The notes beneath the pieces are model-generated. The model was not told where the DNA came from. It was given only the letters and a program-made list of their open reading frames with translations, and made no database searches. Positions 3,417-35,260 of a DNA stretch of 35,260 nucleotides are shown one piece after another (positions within the stretch are counted from its first letter, which is position 1; each line of letters begins with the position of its first letter). A program made the position numbers and the translations under genes. This DNA comes from a virus. Location of the stretch: positions 1 to 35,260 of the IMG/VR virus record IMGVR_UViG_3300031576_000197. One strand, given 5' to 3'.

Positions 3417-3692
3417 ATGACAAAAAAATCCAACCCAAGGCCAGAAATTAAATTAAAGTTACTCGGAGACATCACGCCTGACAAACCCATAAAATGTCTG
3501 GTTAAACTTTCTGGGAATCCAGATCATATGCGTATAATGCTCTCGGTGCTAATCAAGAACCTACAACAAGCAGTCGGAACCGACAAAACCAACTGGCTAT
3601 GGGCAGAAACATTTATGACGTTCAACAAGGACAAAGATCTACCTAAACCAATTCCGGTAGAAGAGGTTAAACCTGAGGAGTCTCAGCTGTAG
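3417..3692 (+). CDS. Hypothetical protein (91 aa), last gene of the plus arm
   Basis: No family is recognised. Basic N-terminus (MTKKSNPRPEIKLK), a central region that looks like mixed strands and helix, and a proline/glutamate-rich tail (KPIPVEEVKPEESQL). The last 26 bp overlap the 3' end of the convergent holin-like gene on the other strand. The proline/glutamate tail is thus encoded by DNA that also encodes the holin C-terminus. Confidence 0.6.
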   Translation: MTKKSNPRPEIKLKLLGDITPDKPIKCLVKLSGNPDHMRIMLSVLIKNLQQAVGTDKTNWLWAETFMTFNKDKDLPKPIPVEEVKPEESQL

Positions 3693-3900
3693 TATCTGTC
3701 ATATACTTGTGGCAAAGATTAACAACTATACTCCACGATGCCGTAGCAATAGGTGTCCATACACCAAAATCAGCATTACCGATAATGCCAGATAAGTACG
3801 TTATAAAGGCTCCAGTCATCGCAATGATTGCGCCCTTGAACACCTTAAGCAGGTCTTGCTGGCTAAGGTTGTACTTCTTTGAACCAGATAATTTTTTCAT
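3667..3900 (-). CDS. Holin-like small membrane protein (77 aa)
   Basis: A lysine-rich N-terminus (MKKLSGSKKYNLSQQD) precedes two hydrophobic segments: KGAIIAMTGAFITYLSGII (about 23-41) and VWTPIATASWSIVVNL (about 48-63). This two-span layout fits small phage holins that let endolysin reach the wall. It lies immediately downstream of the M23 endopeptidase gene (4-bp gap), the usual holin/endolysin pairing, at the end of the late operon. Its 3' end overlaps the convergent gene by 26 bp. Its start is followed upstream by the usual A/T-rich leader. Confidence 0.65.
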   Translation of the reverse strand: MKKLSGSKKYNLSQQDLLKVFKGAIIAMTGAFITYLSGIIGNADFGVWTPIATASWSIVVNLCHKYMTDTTAETPQV

Positions 3901-3904
3901 AGTA

Positions 3905-4393
3905 TTAAGTTATTAAGTCTCCTGACGGGCCAAATCCATACTTACCGTATAGCTCGCGTAAGTACATAATAGGGTCTGTATTCCAACCTTTATAGGTAGC
4001 AAGCGATCTAGCCATTATTCTGTCCAATAGCTTTTCTGGTTTTTTAAAGACGATTATCTCGTAGTGCAGATGAGCTGAAGTTGTCTTTGCCCCACTGTTT
4101 CCTGTAATACCGAGTACCTGATTACGCTTAACCTTTTGCCCTTCTGTGACGTCCACCTGCTTCATATGTGCGAATACGTGAATTGATCCAGAGGCTATAT
4201 CACATAGGTATATAACCTTACCCATCTCTTTCTGTTCGAGTATCTTTACAATTTGGCCAGTAACTGGAGATGGCAACGGTTCAAAGATATAATTCAGATC
4301 GACTCCCGTGTGGCCTTTAATAATATTGTAAAAACCCCGAGGCTTCTTTGACCTATAATGATTCCAGATAACAGCTTCTAATATATGTTTCAT
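3905..4393 (-). CDS. M23-family peptidoglycan endopeptidase, likely endolysin (162 aa)
   Basis: A zinc endopeptidase of the LytM/M23 type that cuts peptide cross-links in the cell wall. Visible ligands and catalytic residues: H28xxxD32 in GHTGVDLNY, H76 in VFAHM, and H108-L-H110 in SAHLHYE. The glycine-containing beta-roll between them (PVTGQIVKIL and GQKVKRNQVLGITGNSG) is typical. No wall-binding domain or signal peptide is present, so export would rely on the adjacent holin-like protein. It could alternatively be virion-associated, as it directly follows structural genes. The C-terminal 40 residues are outside the core. Confidence 0.85.
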   Translation of the reverse strand: MKHILEAVIWNHYRSKKPRGFYNIIKGHTGVDLNYIFEPLPSPVTGQIVKILEQKEMGKVIYLCDIASGSIHVFAHMKQVDVTEGQKVKRNQVLGITGNSGAKTTSAHLHYEIIVFKKPEKLLDRIMARSLATYKGWNTDPIMYLRELYGKYGFGPSGDLIT

Positions 4394-4398
4394 GTGGT

Positions 4399-5328
4399 TT
4401 ATTGAGGGAATAAAACTGTCTCTTTAAATTGTAAGTTTGAAGTCGTTGGCGTGAACGAAGCACCGGGGATACTAGTCTTTCGAAAGAAATCCTCGTACTC
4501 CTGTGCAGATCTCTTGGCGCCAGTGCTGTCATACCTCTGTAGATTAGAGGTAGTTATCTTGTGTTGTTGAACCGCAGCCTCGTATTCTTTCTGGCGTTGT
4601 TCAGCGACTGGAGACCTGCCAAATAAATCCACCGTTTCAGTCCGGTTCGCAAGAGCTTTTTGAGTATCAAGTACACGCTGATAAGCTGAAATATTCTCTT
4701 CCCTCGCCCTCTCATATGGATTGAGTGTCTGCTCTTTAGCAATCTCTGGGTGTTCTTGCAGGTATTTGTTGATGTATTGCTGTGTTCCCCCATACGAAAA
4801 ATACTTTTCTCCACGCTTAGCAGCTTCTGCAATTTGCTGTCCACCAAAGGCCTCTGCTGGATTCCATCTACCCTGATTAACTCCAGCCTGAAACAGTACC
4901 TGCTGGGCGACATAGTTAGGAATACTTAGGACTTGTCCGCCTATATTCACCTTGGCTACGCCACCTTGGACTGATGGATTTTGATTTCCCATAAAGGAAG
5001 TACCAACATTACTAAAACTTACTTCCGGTAAACTAACCGTTTTAGCTGTGTCTATCTGTCCCTCTGGTGTGTAATAGGTTGCAAGGTTGACAGGAGCGAA
5101 TGATTGACTTACACCTTGACGTCCGGTATTTACCTGCTGCTGGTATGCAGCATTCTCTGCCAGCGTGACCGCTGCTGGCTTGGTGTAGGTCGGTGGAGTA
5201 AGGAACGATAGCTTATCGGCGTTCTTCATTACGTCGTTGTATATTGTACTTACCGCCGAAAACGCGTTGGACTTAGTGGGTTCGACCAGAGCTGTATATT
5301 GGGCTGTAATGGTATCTATTGCGCTCAT
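4399..5328 (-). CDS. Putative virion protein (309 aa), near the ejection proteins
   Basis: No enzymatic motif is recognised. The N-terminal third is alanine/serine-rich and helical (MSAIDTITAQYTALVEPTKS), the centre is polar with many Gln and Asn, and a charged helical region follows (YERAREENISAYQRVLDTQK). It starts 1 bp after the 1421-residue protein stops, so the two are coupled. Position and composition suggest an internal or tail-associated protein co-ejected with the genome. A shadow ORF in another frame (4554-4913) was ignored. Confidence 0.6.
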   Translation of the reverse strand: MSAIDTITAQYTALVEPTKSNAFSAVSTIYNDVMKNADKLSFLTPPTYTKPAAVTLAENAAYQQQVNTGRQGVSQSFAPVNLATYYTPEGQIDTAKTVSLPEVSFSNVGTSFMGNQNPSVQGGVAKVNIGGQVLSIPNYVAQQVLFQAGVNQGRWNPAEAFGGQQIAEAAKRGEKYFSYGGTQQYINKYLQEHPEIAKEQTLNPYERAREENISAYQRVLDTQKALANRTETVDLFGRSPVAEQRQKEYEAAVQQHKITTSNLQRYDSTGAKRSAQEYEDFFRKTSIPGASFTPTTSNLQFKETVLFPQ

Positions 5329-5329
5329 G

Positions 5330-8300
5330 TTATTTGGCTGTTATTTCGTCATGCTTCTTTGTAATATACTTCTCGTACTCAGGATAGTCGTCGTATAACT
5401 GATTAAGTCTTTTGTTAGCTCGTTCGGGGTCTATCTGTGCAAGATCATTTAGGGTTGTAATCTCCTGACGTATGGTATTTTGAATCTTACTTTTCCCCTC
5501 TATCTTATCGACCTCGGCATCATATCTATCGTTAATATATTTCTCGTAGGAAGGATATTTATCATACATTTCGTTCAGTATTTTATTGGCTTCTTCCACA
5601 GAAGACCCCGCTACTCTTGCGGCTTCACGCACCTTTTGTCTTATCAAGGTTTGATTCTCGTCTAGATCAAAATCTGGATCCCTGTATTGTTCAGTCTTCT
5701 CAAATTCACCTACCCCTTCTTCCCTTACCTTCACGCCAGTTAAAGCTTCAGTTATAGCGGCTGGAACACTTTCTTCTTTTTCTGCTGCTCTTACGCTTTT
5801 CTGTAACGGTACACCAGCAAGTGGTACAAGCTGTGGCGCCAGATAGGTAAATATATCAGCGAACATATTGCCAGCACCCTCATCTGGGTTGAAGATCTGT
5901 TTGCCAGTAAATGGATTCTGATTCTTGATAAATATATTATATATATCCTGAGCCGGAAACGACGCTAGTCCCGGTACACTTCCCTGTACATACCCGTACA
6001 GCTGGTCTGGCAACATTTCACTTAGCGGTTCTCCTTTTTTCTTCTGGCTTCCCTTAAACATATCAGAGAATGGCGTATAGCTTCCAAAGTCTACCGATAT
6101 CAAGTCACCGTCTTCACTCCTTCCAACTGTAATCTTGCCATCTCTGAATAACCTAGTGTATGCCATTTGTTTCTCCTCGTTAGTCATTGGTAGCGTGCCG
6201 CTTTCTATAAGTGTTGAACCAACTGCAAACGGGATACTAAGCGGCATAGAAGTTTGTAGTGGTTTTTCAATGAAGGATTTTAGTAGTTCTGGATAAACTT
6301 TATATCTCCAAGTCATGAACGGTACGCCAATCAAACTCTGTCTGAATTTCTTTATTAGCGGATTCACGTCTCCATAATCTGGCGTAACCCTTCTAGCTTG
6401 GACCACTGCTGCTTCAGGCGTCAGGCCCTTCTGTCTAAGCTTCTTGTAATTAGCCATCAGGAAAAGATTGTCTCCAAGTTGATACTTGTCACCAAGCCAA
6501 CTATCAAGTGCACGCCATTTGTCTAAAAGCTTATTAGGGGATTTACCAAGTTGTTGCTTCACGATGTCATCAAGAGTTTGCCCAAGTTCTTGTTTAAGAC
6601 CAGTGTCACCTATCTGGCCATAATTCAGTAGTTCGTCATAGAAATCATCCTTGTTTTTTAAGGATTTATAGGCGTCTGATATTTCAACAAATCCACTAGG
6701 ACTGAAGAAATTGTGTCCTAAAATAGATTGAGAAACAGCAAAGTTTGATGCCATATTCCTGACTTGGCCACCTATATTTCTTGACGTAAGATTTCCCTTA
6801 ATGAAATTATTAATGGCATTCATCGTCTTTAGAAATTTACCCGACTTTTGTTTTTCTAGCTCAAGATATTCAAAAACATCTTCCCTAAGATATTTGCCCT
6901 TTAGGGTTCCATACTGGTCAGAGCTTAGTTTTATCCATTTATCAGCTTGATTTGCAGGTATAGTATCTTTCATCGCATCCGTCTCAGAGAGTCTTGCCAG
7001 AAACTCTTGATTCATTCTGGCCTGTTTGAGCTCCAGTAGAGTTCTCGCAACCAAATATTCAGGGTCTTTAATTTCACCCAGAAAATCTCGGATTGCCATG
7101 TCAACCTCTCCCTCGCCCAACTTTCTTTTCTTAAGAAAGTCTCCTTCAGTTTTTATACCGCTTGGCTTTATACCAACTGGAACATCTTTGACATTACCCA
7201 TCAATATATCGGTAATAACTTTTTCAGCCTCTCTACCGTCAAGATTACGCTCTTTTATTAAGGCGTTCTTTAGATGATTATAGCTTTCAGCCAATGGCTG
7301 AAACTCAGGCGACCCATGGACTGAATATAGTCTACGAATATAGCTTCCCATATTCTTAAAATAGACCTCTGGGTCAAGCTTGCCAGCCTGTACTTGTCTT
7401 AGTCCTTCTATGTCTATCTCTCTACGTATGACGTCTAGTGTTTCTTTAACTCCAGGTTCTAATCCTTCAACTTCTTTACCCCTTATATATTCTCCGGCTA
7501 GTTTCTTTTGACTATCATCAAGTTGCTTCAATGGCTCAATGATCTCTTGTATACCAGTCATTTCTCTGGTCTCTGCCCTTTTCTTCTCTGTAATAATTTT
7601 AAAAAGACTATCTTCAATATTTTGTTGTTTTTTAAATGTGTGATTGACACCTTCTTTAAATCCTTTGGGTAACGCATCAATCGCCTTATAAGCAGCCCAT
7701 CTGAGACCTTTTAGTGGCACTGATAAAACCTTATCTAATTGCTCAACAATTGGATTAATAAGACCACGCCTAGCAGGCCCCATGTCTTTTAATATCTCAT
7801 CAGCCTTACTGTATTCACCCTTGGCAATAGATTCCTCAATAGCCTTACGCTTTGTAACTTCTTGTTCCATATCTCTAAGTATTCCAGATCTTGCTCCTAC
7901 GTCTTCACCAAATTCCTTTATTGCAGGGACTCCAGTAACTCCCTGTAAGCTAGTCATTCGCCCCCGCTCCACAAAGCCCTGATCGCGCATTGTTTTGTGT
8001 AGCAATCTCGCTTCGGAAAACAAATCTCTGCCATATAAGTTCCCTACCAGTGAAGTATTAAGAAGCGTATCCTGCACTTCTCGATTGTTAAGTGTTGACC
8101 CCTTAGCTTCCTCAGCCTCTTTTAAAGATGTTTCAAACTTAGACGCAACTTCGGATGGTGATACGTTCTTAAACAATGGTGTTCTTGTCATAATCCTTCC
8201 CAACCCCTCCATTCCTCCTCCTAACAAAATCCCCAAGCCAAAGTCTGCTATACCATATTCTTGTCCAGTCGCCTTCCTAACGCCAGCCTCTACCATCTCT

Positions 8301-9595
8301 TCGCCAACATTTTGTACGACATATGACGTCAGTATAGGATGCTCAGAAAGAAACGTTCCTACCTTAGGAATACCCTTTAAGGCCTGTCCAACCTTGGCAG
8401 CCACAACACTATATGTTGGGACACCGCCAGCAAACTGACTTACTATATTTACAGCATTACCAATACCTTCGTTAAATTCTTGCAGTTCCTTATTCTCTTC
8501 AAATGTAGGTTCTTGTCTTGCTAGTTTCTTGGATGCTACTTGAGATACAATCCCAAAGCTCATACCGTCTAAAAACCCTCGCACAGCTTCCTTTGGTAGA
8601 TCAATTAAAGCCTCTTTAAGAACTGCCTCCCTTTCTTCGGTAGGAGTCTCAACATACTTCCTAACAACAGAGTCAGGAAAATACTGATTAGCACGCAATC
8701 CGCCCGGATCAGCTAGCTGTTCGGCTAATTTGTTTCTCTGGTCATCAAGGTATTGATTGTATTCTGCAACTTCCTCTTGGTGTACTCGAGTATTTAAAGA
8801 CTGTCTCTCTGTGTCTGGCAGTTTATTAAAAGCTTCTCTTGCATCCTTCTCAATACCGGCTGCACCAGCTGCTGCGTATTGTATAGACTTGGACGGATCT
8901 TTAGAAGCCTCAGTTGTGAACTGCTGTTTATATATCTCAAAAGCCTTTTGTTCACTGGCAGATTTTTGACGTAATTCATCAATAAACTCCTTTCCTTTTT
9001 CAATTGTTTCCAAAACTTGACTTGGCTTGATTTCCTTTTTCAAAAATGGCTTGGCAATATCTAATCCTGTTTTTACATATGGAGCTAGTGGCGTTGCTTC
9101 AATTTCCTCTCCCGTGGTCTCACCAATAGATGTATCTTTATAAATCGGTTCCTGCTCGCCAAACTTCTTTATTTCTTTACCAGTTAAACGCGCAAGTTCT
9201 TGTCCCTCAGACTCACCAAGTCCGGCTGTCTTAGCTCTTCGGGTAAGATCAGCAATTCTTTCGTCCTGTTTCTGAATAGCGGTTGCGAAAGTGGATGCGG
9301 CTTGGGGAATTGCTCTAATACCAGATTGTATCTTTGTTAATAAATTCTCAGGCGGGTGCTTGCTAAGCATTGACTGTAAGTCTGTACTGATGACGGAAGT
9401 ATTTTCTGCTGGATGCTTTGCCATAAACTCATCAAGGCTCAGTGTCGGCTTCTTTATGATTGGCTTTTTCACGCTCTTCTTAAGTGCTTCTTGCTTTTTG
9501 GACTCAGCCACAAATTTCTGTACTGTTGGAGCTGCTGCCTTAGCGGTCTCCTGCAATGCGGTCTTACCTAATTCAAGAAAATAATTATTAGCCAT
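5330..9595 (-). CDS. Very large internal virion / ejection-type protein (1421 aa)
   Basis: At 4.3 kb this is the largest gene. Long charged and helical stretches dominate (DELRQKSASEQKAFEIYKQQ near 210-230; repeated Glu/Lys-rich segments). A glycine/alanine hydrophobic region lies near 380-470, and a segment TWRYKVYPELLKSFIEKP falls near 1095. The tail holds two similar copies of a helix ending YDxYPxYEKYI (near 1355 and 1405). The layout fits podovirus inner-core proteins that are injected with DNA and may form a conduit (T7 gp16-like role), but I see no transglycosylase motif. Gene position beside the CHAP-bearing protein supports an ejection role. Function is inferred. Confidence 0.65.
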   Translation of the reverse strand: MANNYFLELGKTALQETAKAAAPTVQKFVAESKKQEALKKSVKKPIIKKPTLSLDEFMAKHPAENTSVISTDLQSMLSKHPPENLLTKIQSGIRAIPQAASTFATAIQKQDERIADLTRRAKTAGLGESEGQELARLTGKEIKKFGEQEPIYKDTSIGETTGEEIEATPLAPYVKTGLDIAKPFLKKEIKPSQVLETIEKGKEFIDELRQKSASEQKAFEIYKQQFTTEASKDPSKSIQYAAAGAAGIEKDAREAFNKLPDTERQSLNTRVHQEEVAEYNQYLDDQRNKLAEQLADPGGLRANQYFPDSVVRKYVETPTEEREAVLKEALIDLPKEAVRGFLDGMSFGIVSQVASKKLARQEPTFEENKELQEFNEGIGNAVNIVSQFAGGVPTYSVVAAKVGQALKGIPKVGTFLSEHPILTSYVVQNVGEEMVEAGVRKATGQEYGIADFGLGILLGGGMEGLGRIMTRTPLFKNVSPSEVASKFETSLKEAEEAKGSTLNNREVQDTLLNTSLVGNLYGRDLFSEARLLHKTMRDQGFVERGRMTSLQGVTGVPAIKEFGEDVGARSGILRDMEQEVTKRKAIEESIAKGEYSKADEILKDMGPARRGLINPIVEQLDKVLSVPLKGLRWAAYKAIDALPKGFKEGVNHTFKKQQNIEDSLFKIITEKKRAETREMTGIQEIIEPLKQLDDSQKKLAGEYIRGKEVEGLEPGVKETLDVIRREIDIEGLRQVQAGKLDPEVYFKNMGSYIRRLYSVHGSPEFQPLAESYNHLKNALIKERNLDGREAEKVITDILMGNVKDVPVGIKPSGIKTEGDFLKKRKLGEGEVDMAIRDFLGEIKDPEYLVARTLLELKQARMNQEFLARLSETDAMKDTIPANQADKWIKLSSDQYGTLKGKYLREDVFEYLELEKQKSGKFLKTMNAINNFIKGNLTSRNIGGQVRNMASNFAVSQSILGHNFFSPSGFVEISDAYKSLKNKDDFYDELLNYGQIGDTGLKQELGQTLDDIVKQQLGKSPNKLLDKWRALDSWLGDKYQLGDNLFLMANYKKLRQKGLTPEAAVVQARRVTPDYGDVNPLIKKFRQSLIGVPFMTWRYKVYPELLKSFIEKPLQTSMPLSIPFAVGSTLIESGTLPMTNEEKQMAYTRLFRDGKITVGRSEDGDLISVDFGSYTPFSDMFKGSQKKKGEPLSEMLPDQLYGYVQGSVPGLASFPAQDIYNIFIKNQNPFTGKQIFNPDEGAGNMFADIFTYLAPQLVPLAGVPLQKSVRAAEKEESVPAAITEALTGVKVREEGVGEFEKTEQYRDPDFDLDENQTLIRQKVREAARVAGSSVEEANKILNEMYDKYPSYEKYINDRYDAEVDKIEGKSKIQNTIRQEITTLNDLAQIDPERANKRLNQLYDDYPEYEKYITKKHDEITAK

Positions 9596-30031: not shown

Positions 30032-30844
30032 ATGCCTTCCAACATTAAGATAGCGGTGAGCTCGGAAGGCAGCCGCTATCTTTTTTATTTAAATCTTATG
30101 CTAGACCTCACAGATCATATTATACGCAAAGCGTACTGTCTCAGCCTACACGAGTATGCAGTTCTAATAGAAATCTATTACTTGTCGCACAACAACAAGT
30201 TTGGCGGGTGGTGTATCAAAAGTAAAGACAACATAGCCGAAACGCTTGATATTGGTCGAGATACTGTTTTTAGCGCAATCAAGAAACTCGAAGCAATTGG
30301 ACTAATAGAACGCGGCACCGAGTTAAAGAACACTATAAGAACAACTGATAAATTCAATTCCGTAGTATCTGCTCGTTCTGGATACGCCTTTTCCGTAAAG
30401 ACTGAAGACGAAGAAATTAAAACAGTAGCTCCTGAACATTCCCGACTCACCGTCGGAAAAACCGACGCCCTACCGTCGGAAAAACCGACGCCCACCGTCG
30501 GAAAAACCGACGCTAATATATACATTAAATATATACAAGATAATATATCTTCTAAAGAAGATACTAAAATTAGAACCTATGGGAACCAGGATATCTCTAA
30601 AATGCTTGATGCTCTTAAGCGAACTATAGGGATAGATGCCTTTGCCGATTCCTCTATAGAGAGAAACATTGCAAAGCATTGTGTTACGTTAATGGATAAA
30701 CTCGGCGTAGAAGAATTTCGCCGCCGGCTTGACATAATCCTTGACGATGGTTTTAAGCGGAGAAACTGCAATCGAATCAAGTATGTCTATAACGAGATCA
30801 AGGGATTTATTGACATAAAATCAAATAGCATTAATTCTTACTAG
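30032..30844 (+). CDS. Winged-helix replication initiator-like protein (270 aa)
   Basis: Residues about 38-105 form a winged helix-turn-helix (LHEYAVLIEIYYLS, KSKDNIAETLDIGRDTVFSA, then IGLIERGTELKNTIRTTDKF), the type used by phage O-like and plasmid Rep initiators. A linker of about 140-165 encodes three 18-bp iterons, so the gene contains its own binding sites as lambda O does. The C-terminal 80 residues are helical and basic (DGFKRRNCNRIKYVYNEIKG), possibly a helicase-loader contact region. It probably recruits host replication proteins, as no phage helicase or polymerase is present. First gene of the early arm with its own promoter; a general regulator is an alternative. Confidence 0.65.
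   Translation: MPSNIKIAVSSEGSRYLFYLNLMLDLTDHIIRKAYCLSLHEYAVLIEIYYLSHNNKFGGWCIKSKDNIAETLDIGRDTVFSAIKKLEAIGLIERGTELKNTIRTTDKFNSVVSARSGYAFSVKTEDEEIKTVAPEHSRLTVGKTDALPSEKPTPTVGKTDANIYIKYIQDNISSKEDTKIRTYGNQDISKMLDALKRTIGIDAFADSSIERNIAKHCVTLMDKLGVEEFRRRLDIILDDGFKRRNCNRIKYVYNEIKGFIDIKSNSINSY
30450..30512. repeat. Three 18-bp palindromic iterons, likely replication origin
   Basis: Three identical copies of CCGTCGGAAAAACCGACG at 30450-30467, 30473-30490 and 30495-30512, with 23- and 22-bp spacing (about two helical turns). Each is an inverted repeat (CGTCGG/CCGACG) with an A5 centre. Copies 1 and 3 are read as TVGKTD, copy 2 in another frame as PSEKPT, so the identity is conserved at the DNA level, not the protein level. 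An AT-rich stretch follows immediately (30514-30580), as in lambda ori where O iterons lie next to an AT-rich region. They are likely the binding sites of the initiator in whose gene they lie. Confidence 0.75.
30514..30580. other. AT-rich DNA-unwinding candidate next to the iterons
   Basis: Directly 3' of iteron 3, with runs such as TAATATATACATTAAATATA and a small inverted repeat ATCTTC-TAAA-GAAGAT near 30547-30562. In origins of the lambda and plasmid iteron types, an AT-rich region beside the iterons melts first. The stretch is also coding (YIKYIQDNISSKEDTKI), which uses AT-rich codons. Confidence 0.5.
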
Positions 30845-34612: not shown

Positions 34613-34921
34613 ATGAAAATATATGCAAGACACGGAGATGTAGCCTTTATCAAGGGCAAGAACGACAAAAAGTTCACCAAGAAAAAGGATAAGAAGGTTG
34701 CTCTTGGCGAAGTTACCGGCCATTCGCATCAATTCTTAATGGATGGTGTGGATGTTCTGGTAGATGTATCTCAACCTAACTGGGGAAGAGCCCTTGAGGT
34801 AGAATCTCCAGTCGTGATAACTCACGAAGAACATAAGCCGATTCCGTTTGAACCAGGAGAGTATGTTGTAAGACACCAACGAACTTACTCCAGTGTTGGG
34901 CTGTCAAAGGTACTAGACTAA
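34613..34921 (+). CDS. GHSH-motif protein next to the DUF6745 gene (102 aa)
   Basis: RHGDVAF (6-12), GEVTGHSH (32-39) and THEEHKPI (70-77), then a Gly-Glu-Tyr-x-Val-x-x-x-Gln-Arg segment (GEYVVRHQRTY). Four His residues (37, 39, 71, 74) could bind metal. I recall proteins with RQGDVLx, GEVTGHAH and HEEHxPI adjacent to DUF6745 genes in many bacteria; their role is unknown to me. The ATG at 34613 is chosen over an upstream start because of the leader ACTTTAAAAAAT. It starts only 10 bp before the DUF6745-like gene's ATG region, implying joint expression. Confidence 0.65.
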   Translation: MKIYARHGDVAFIKGKNDKKFTKKKDKKVALGEVTGHSHQFLMDGVDVLVDVSQPNWGRALEVESPVVITHEEHKPIPFEPGEYVVRHQRTYSSVGLSKVLD

Positions 34922-34931
34922 TTAAAACAAA

Positions 34932-35260
34932 ATGAATTACTCACAAAAAACAGCTGATCTAATTGAGAGAATGTGTAGAAATGTGGAGCGACTTGATTTT
35001 GATCTTAAGAAAGGCTTGGCCGAGGAATTGATTATGAAGACGTATGATCTATTTGGCCTCAAAAGACCTTTAAAAGTAGTTTGGTGTATAGATATTTTTG
35101 ATGAAAAGTTTGCGAGGAATGCGAGGAATGCGTTGAATGCGAGGAGTGCGTGGAGTGCGGGGAGTGCGTGGAGTGCGTTGAGTGCGTGGAATGCGGGGAA
35201 TGCGGGGAGTGCGTGGAATGCGTTGAGTGCGTGGAATGCGGGGAATGCGGGGAGTGCGTG
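34932..35260 (+). CDS. DUF6745-like protein, 5' part (continues at 1-972)
   Basis: The first 61 residues ([20 protein letters not shown], then a helix and [11 protein letters not shown]) match the N-terminal helix-then-VVWC/SP pattern I recall from DUF6745 proteins. The tripeptide repeat begins at residue 62 (35115). Joining at 35168/1 keeps the same frame, giving 402 residues. Leader AATTAAAACAAA has no Shine-Dalgarno. The repeat sits between the N-terminal segment and the conserved core, like a flexible or fibrous insert. Confidence 0.7.
35115..35260 (+). repeat. 9-bp minisatellite, 5' portion (6 unique units plus overlap)
   Basis: In-phase units from 35115: X residues R-R-L-R-W-G (35115-35168) and then the units that also appear from position 1. 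AGG (R), TTG (L), TGG (W) and GGG (G) are the only X codons, each one or two changes from the others. The edges of the array carry the R/L units and the centre W/G, as if it has expanded from the inside by slippage. Confidence 0.9.
35169..35260. repeat. Terminal direct repeat (copy 2 of 2)
   Basis: Identical to bases 1-92, so the unique circular length is 35,168 bp if the overlap is real. The junction can slide in units of 9 bp within the minisatellite, so the true array length may differ by several units. Confidence 0.85.

Follow-up and report, generated by a model that had tools for sequence, protein, structure and literature searches.

A GHSH-DUF6745 gene pair shared by phages and bacteria carries an in-frame array of variable short repeats in most sampled phage members

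What is encoded by a phage gene pair whose second member has a tandem repeat at its centre and is divided between the two ends of a sequence record? The window, i.e. the whole stretch of DNA analysed here, is the 35,260-base IMG/VR virus record IMGVR_UViG_3300031576_000197, in which head, packaging and lysis genes are present (terminase, E=2e-40; major head protein, E=6e-30). The layout given in a first-pass annotation is found in full, namely a His-motif ORF of 102 residues at 34613-34921 (plus strand, as are all features of the pair), a gap of 10 bases and a 402-residue DUF6745 ORF that runs from 34932-35168 into 1-972. The first and last 92 bases of the window are identical (1-92 and 35169-35260), and trimming this overlap yields the single open frame, with an ATG at 34932. 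Residues 1-60 of the product (34932-35111) have a comparable part in relatives and are followed by an array of 9-nt units encoding X-S/N-A tripeptides (X = W/G/R/L), which occupies 35112-35260, runs on across the contig junction at 1-252 and makes up the central part of the protein. The conserved C-terminal domain (NEEVRRVM...CPSTGREY...AVAWTFG) lies at 442-972. TRF detects the array on either side of the junction (35111-35260 and 1-252), which is far beyond chance. Since the overlap falls entirely inside the repeat, the copy number in the window (about 33 units after trimming) is unreliable; on its own, the overlap does little to prove circularity. The complementary halves of one gene at the two contig ends do, however, support a genome that is circular or circularly permuted. 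Elsewhere in the window, three copies of a 23-bp unit are found at 30448-30513, inside ORF 30032-30844.

The first protein of the pair, GHSH, features the motifs TGHSH (...GEVTGHSHQF...) and HEEH (...ITHEEHKPI...). It matches phrog_27831 (E=6e-9) and no Pfam or NCBIfam family. Four histidines (H37, H39, H71 and H74) are invariant across 71 relatives, as are G32 and E33, and the AF2 model is compact and all-beta, with a pLDDT of 90.7. The four histidines are putative metal ligands, and GHSH is probably a metal-binding beta protein. Sequences of solved structures gave nothing significant, and the model matched no PDB entry in Foldseek (best E 0.26) or in the VIA fold search (best Z 3.0). The cereblon thalidomide-binding-domain fold appeared among the VIA rows at Z scores of about 2.3-2.9, which are too weak, and was rejected.

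The second protein is a DUF6745 member, as the first-pass annotation had proposed: an HMM search matches it to PF20530 with E=8.3e-17 and 61.6 bits, above the curated cut-off of 27 bits. The match covers residues 227-355 plus the C-terminus (442-828 and 889-969 in the window), and its two pieces span model positions 58-206 of 206; in an annotated Deinococcus member the match starts at position 66. DUF6745 is named in none of the papers searched, has no significant counterpart among sequences of solved structures, and a scan of viral_contigs with the C-terminal domain of the window alone gave no close relative. In the model of an array-bearing homologue (L111), the N- and C-terminal parts are confident and the array is modelled as helical at low confidence, with a pLDDT of about 42-79; no PDB match was obtained with this model (best Foldseek E 2.1; best VIA Z 3.8). 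Several candidate similarities were discarded. Matches to Plasmodium HRP and to a type II nicking enzyme reflect low-complexity similarity to the array, and XopL-type matches of the Deinococcus protein reflect LRR similarity and are far under cut-offs. Proteins of the window match no PADLOC defence model, and the PADLOC match of L111 (E=4e-4) is confined to the low-complexity array and is not credible.

GHSH and DUF6745 form a conserved, recurrent two-gene module in bacteria and phages. Bacterial loci were collected by scanning genome_contigs with bacterial C-terminal domains, and viral loci by scanning viral_contigs. Among the best 80 of 544 bacterial relatives, GHSH is immediately upstream of DUF6745 at 74 loci and downstream at 2; among the best 80 of 93 viral relatives, 42 loci have a gene that the contig start does not truncate, and GHSH is upstream in 34 of these and downstream in 3. 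The pair that the first-pass annotation placed in cellular bacteria thus recurs there. In a Pfam-based sample of 146 cyanobacterial genomes, strong GHSH matches occur at 14 places, 13 of which adjoin DUF6745 (coordinates were read by hand), and additional DUF6745 paralogues are found without GHSH. The Obscuribacterales MAG G003 (L071) has 13 DUF6745 matches and two GHSH matches, so that the families are able to separate and expand. Other arrangements were also observed. In MW202476 (L006), an unannotated GHSH-like ORF (6438-6860) lies immediately 3' of the array-bearing DUF6745 gene. In L110, the entire pair is duplicated head to tail (5953-7491 and 7534-9072); the copies are identical over 1,539 bp, array included, and the second copy may be a recent duplication or, given this exactness, an assembly artefact. 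In L003, a protein encoded upstream of the GHSH gene (3626-4414) shows sub-threshold matches to Kyano_Gp96 and DUF6745 and may be a remote relative of the partner.

The surroundings of the pair differ between bacteria and phages. At least two of STM4012-STM4015 are present in the fetched flanks of 65 of the 80 bacterial loci (best 80 of 544), whereas queries with STM4012-4015 gave 0 matches at 152 viral loci. In annotated plasmids, GHSH-DUF6745 adjoins STM4015-4014-4013-4012-4011, an association that goes beyond the first-pass annotation. STM4013 matches sulfatase/phosphodiesterase models and STM4012 matches radical SAM/HemN; STM4013 or STM4015 is mentioned in passing in two Salmonella papers. 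The phage retains the pair alone, as it might if the pair competed with the bacterial GHSH-DUF6745-STM4011-4015 system or served as its decoy, mimicking the host pair and titrating or redirecting its partners, possibly by being an altered substrate for the radical-SAM enzymes; we consider this unlikely, as viral arrays are unlike the bacterial LRR-type segments described below.

In phages, the neighbours of the pair resemble, by reading, RecT/ERF, YqaJ-type exonuclease, helicase and DnaB. In the cultured Microcystis phage Ma-LMM01, the pair corresponds to gp175 and gp174, has no array and lies between the DNA polymerase gp178 and the uracil-DNA glycosylase gp173. Both gp173 and gp178 are middle-phase genes (PMC5780444), and gp174 and gp175 are absent by name from the main text of that paper. 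In prophiGD102-1, a prophage of a Mycobacterium abscessus isolate, the module (GHSH, gp37; DUF6745, gp38) is flanked by a RepA-like gene on one side and WhiB genes on the other; other genes occupy this position in prophiGD27-1 and CCUG48898T-2, and tblastn found DUF6745 in none of the other M. abscessus prophage records. The module therefore behaves as an accessory cassette in M. abscessus prophages, in keeping with the mobile module envisaged in the first-pass annotation. The role in host takeover or phage conflict suggested there is possible.

Arrays were called with a simple self-similarity score and a threshold in 82 viral and 80 bacterial DUF6745 genes. An in-frame array is present in 67 of the 82 viral genes (the window and MW202476 included) and in 0 of the 80 bacterial genes, the best 80 of 544; since these are the genes nearest the query, rarer bacterial types could have escaped notice. 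A further 34 genome loci yielded a single array (L277), on a contig (L278) with ORFs resembling phage portal and terminase by eye. The array, hence, is phage-specific in the samples examined, a point absent from the first-pass annotation. No array exceeds the threshold in about 18% of viral members, and the pair of the cultured Microcystis phages, including Ma-LMM01, likewise lacks one. The module thus does not depend on the array. Its bacterial counterpart is an LRR-type segment in Deinococcus, Methylobacterium and Planctomycetes, judging by the sequence pattern and by weak matches to LRR models, and a non-repetitive, helix-like segment in actinobacteria. Different repeats were also noticed on some of the viral contigs. 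A distinct 12-nt array, one frame of which reads G-[S/Y/D/N], occurs elsewhere on the contig in L112 (10078-10401), L233 (1940-2244) and L209 (10017-10260), and is possibly a second hypervariable repeat family; in L241, an AAA-W/R-type array (3827-4001) maps to a separate site on the same contig as the GHSH-linked array.

Array units are mostly 12 nt long, others being 9 or 18 nt, and arrays range from about 8 to 71 units. The typical 12-nt unit encodes [R/W/G]-[A/D]-S-V, and other backbones feature Q-L, Q-V, N-L, S-L, A-A, A-V or A-T in place of S-V; 9-nt units encode [D/A]-A-[R/L/Q] or, in the window, [W/G/R/L]-[S/N]-A. Each unit varies at one or two codons only, which typically encode Arg/Trp/Gly and then Ala/Asp, and identical residue sets recur on differing backbones (SV, QL, QV, NL, SL, AA, AV and AT). 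For instance, in the 45 units of prophiGD102-1, CAG CTC is invariant, and the two variable codons are GGG/CGG/TGG and GAC/GGC.

Comparison of units with their consensus revealed 1693 nonsynonymous and 44 synonymous codon differences, where 456 synonymous ones are expected. To count distinct variants, each codon variant present in at least two units was scored once, near-duplicates were removed, and L151 (phase slip) and L157 (out of frame) were excluded. The 58 non-redundant arrays contain 202 nonsynonymous and 7 synonymous distinct variants (binomial p=3e-18). With prophiGD102-1 added (59 arrays), the counts are 205 and 7, for a crude omega of about 10.6 (95% bootstrap 6.1-35), a calculation that assumes independent codon variants and equal mutation rates. 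Some arrays may be related by descent. Most of the arrays (53/59) lack any synonymous variant, and transversions outnumber transitions by 125 to 52 in the 59 arrays. The arrays are thus strongly biased towards nonsynonymous change, even though the variants of any one array depend partly on one another.

The first-pass annotation had pictured the array as a linker or fibre, set between two conserved parts, whose copy number could change without breaking the frame. Its position and in-frame variation are confirmed: two near-identical phage contigs, L139 and L140, carry 39 and 58 units, a difference of 171 nt, between flanks that are 99.6-99.7% identical, although assembly collapse is conceivable. 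The identity of the protein, the pairing and the accessory behaviour stand as well; the mere linker or fibre is too weak a description, because the content of the array, and not its length alone, is strongly biased towards nonsynonymous change. An array acting as a flexible or length-tuned spacer, with neutral content, a unit number that may matter and units kept similar by homogenisation, would account for its low-complexity composition, its low model confidence, its range of lengths and the copy-number change between L139 and L140. Neutral content, however, predicts about 54 synonymous distinct variants where 7 are observed, and variation keeps to the same one or two codons across differing backbones. 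We regard a spacer as unlikely.

The variation keeps to fixed nucleotides, in many cases the first base of an NGG codon and the fifth base of the unit, and could also be produced by directed mutagenesis that rewrites the variable codons at set positions, similar to the action of diversity-generating retroelements (DGRs). Random mutation at base 1 of NGG should nevertheless mix Arg codons, and 0 of 59 Arg-containing array columns feature two of them. Moreover, DGR variability is adenine-specific, whereas the variable bases of the arrays include G/T/C sets without A, such as CGG/TGG/GGG in prophiGD102-1. On account of the unmixed Arg columns, directed mutagenesis was rejected, and we consider it very unlikely. 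Each Arg-containing column has one Arg codon, so that the variants apparently arise by copying and shuffling a small set of units and are not newly mutated. Drift should leave variable silent sites, and random mutation of NGG should yield both AGG and CGG in a column; the observed pattern is instead consistent with copying and shuffling of units combined with selection for side-chain diversity.

The array appears to be unstable in unit number, although two other near-identical pairs with complete arrays (L112/L113 and L144/L145) show no unit-number difference. Among 80 viral contigs (best of 93), breaks within the DUF6745 gene fall on the array side in 38 and on the opposite side in 1. At 72 viral GHSH loci, a contig end lies within 1.5 kb downstream in 25 and upstream in 7, and many of these ends are visibly within the array. 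As in the window, at least three other IMG/VR contigs start and end in or beside the DUF6745 gene. In 3300037742_000079 (L129, L208), 3300044691_000230 (L136, L200) and 3300021437_000030 (L142, L239), the array-side half and the GHSH side occupy opposite ends of the contig. The array would explain why many phage contigs end in the DUF6745 gene, and end overlaps within it should not be read as exact genome ends. Metagenome assemblies are the source of the viral_contigs arrays, in which many contigs terminate, as would be seen if the array were an assembly artefact or a DNA-level element only, e.g. a packaging or replication signal. Arrays, however, occur at one gene position, in frame and free of stops, with a bias at the protein level, and one is present in gp38 of prophiGD102-1, the prophage of a bacterial isolate; we regard this explanation as very unlikely.

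We give about an even chance to the reading that the array is an exchangeable recognition segment or surface under diversifying selection, a proposal drawn from the sequence patterns. The conserved C-terminal domain of DUF6745 would do a job common to the phage and bacterial versions, and the N-terminal/central segment would serve as an exchangeable recognition scaffold, which is LRR-type in some bacteria, non-repetitive and helical in actinobacteria, and an array of 3- or 4-residue units in most sampled phages. Slippage or unequal recombination may create and shuffle the units, whose exposed positions would keep side chains of contrasting chemistry (for example Arg/Trp/Gly or Asp/Ala) under diversifying selection. 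Each phage would thereby show its own binding surface to a variable partner. As the genes lie among replication and recombination genes, the putative partner is most likely a host factor encountered in early or middle infection.

Bacterial DUF6745 proteins resemble those of the phages in having a C-terminal domain above the PF20530 cut-off and an upstream GHSH; they differ in that an LRR-type or non-repetitive segment replaces the array, absent from all 80 loci (best of 544), and in that STM4011-4015 usually adjoin. TAL effector repeats are units of about 34 residues that form helical hairpins and carry two adjacent variable residues, the rest being near-invariant. Adjacent variable residues in a near-invariant repeat are likewise a feature of the phage arrays, but unit size does not fit: array units are 3 or 4 residues long, compared with the hairpin or zinc-finger units of about 28-35 residues typical of TALE and PRDM9 repeats. 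The zinc-finger array of PRDM9, a coding minisatellite whose recognition residues are under positive selection, parallels the phage arrays in evolution only, through near-identical units, few differing residues and copy-number turnover (PMC3890296). PRDM9 units are DNA-binding zinc fingers, whereas ligand binding by the 3-4-residue units is only putative. The BACON-domain repeats of crAss-like phages are also evolving tandem repeats in a phage protein, but their units are whole domains (PMC6949934). More tentatively, and at less than even likelihood, phages may have made a conserved bacterial protein into a modular, quickly reshuffled recognition array of 3-4-residue units with one or two variable residues apiece, a short-unit functional analogue of TALE or PRDM9 arrays that would gain its diversity from unit shuffling without dedicated mutagenic machinery.

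The protein pair is common to phages and several bacterial phyla, and three orphan families, DUF6745, GHSH and the STM4011-4015 radical-SAM cassette, are placed in one shared context. The prophage prophiGD102-1 and the cultured, array-free Microcystis phages make the recognition reading testable. If true, it would represent a compact, shuffling-based diversification of a phage binding protein that is distinct from diversity-generating retroelements.
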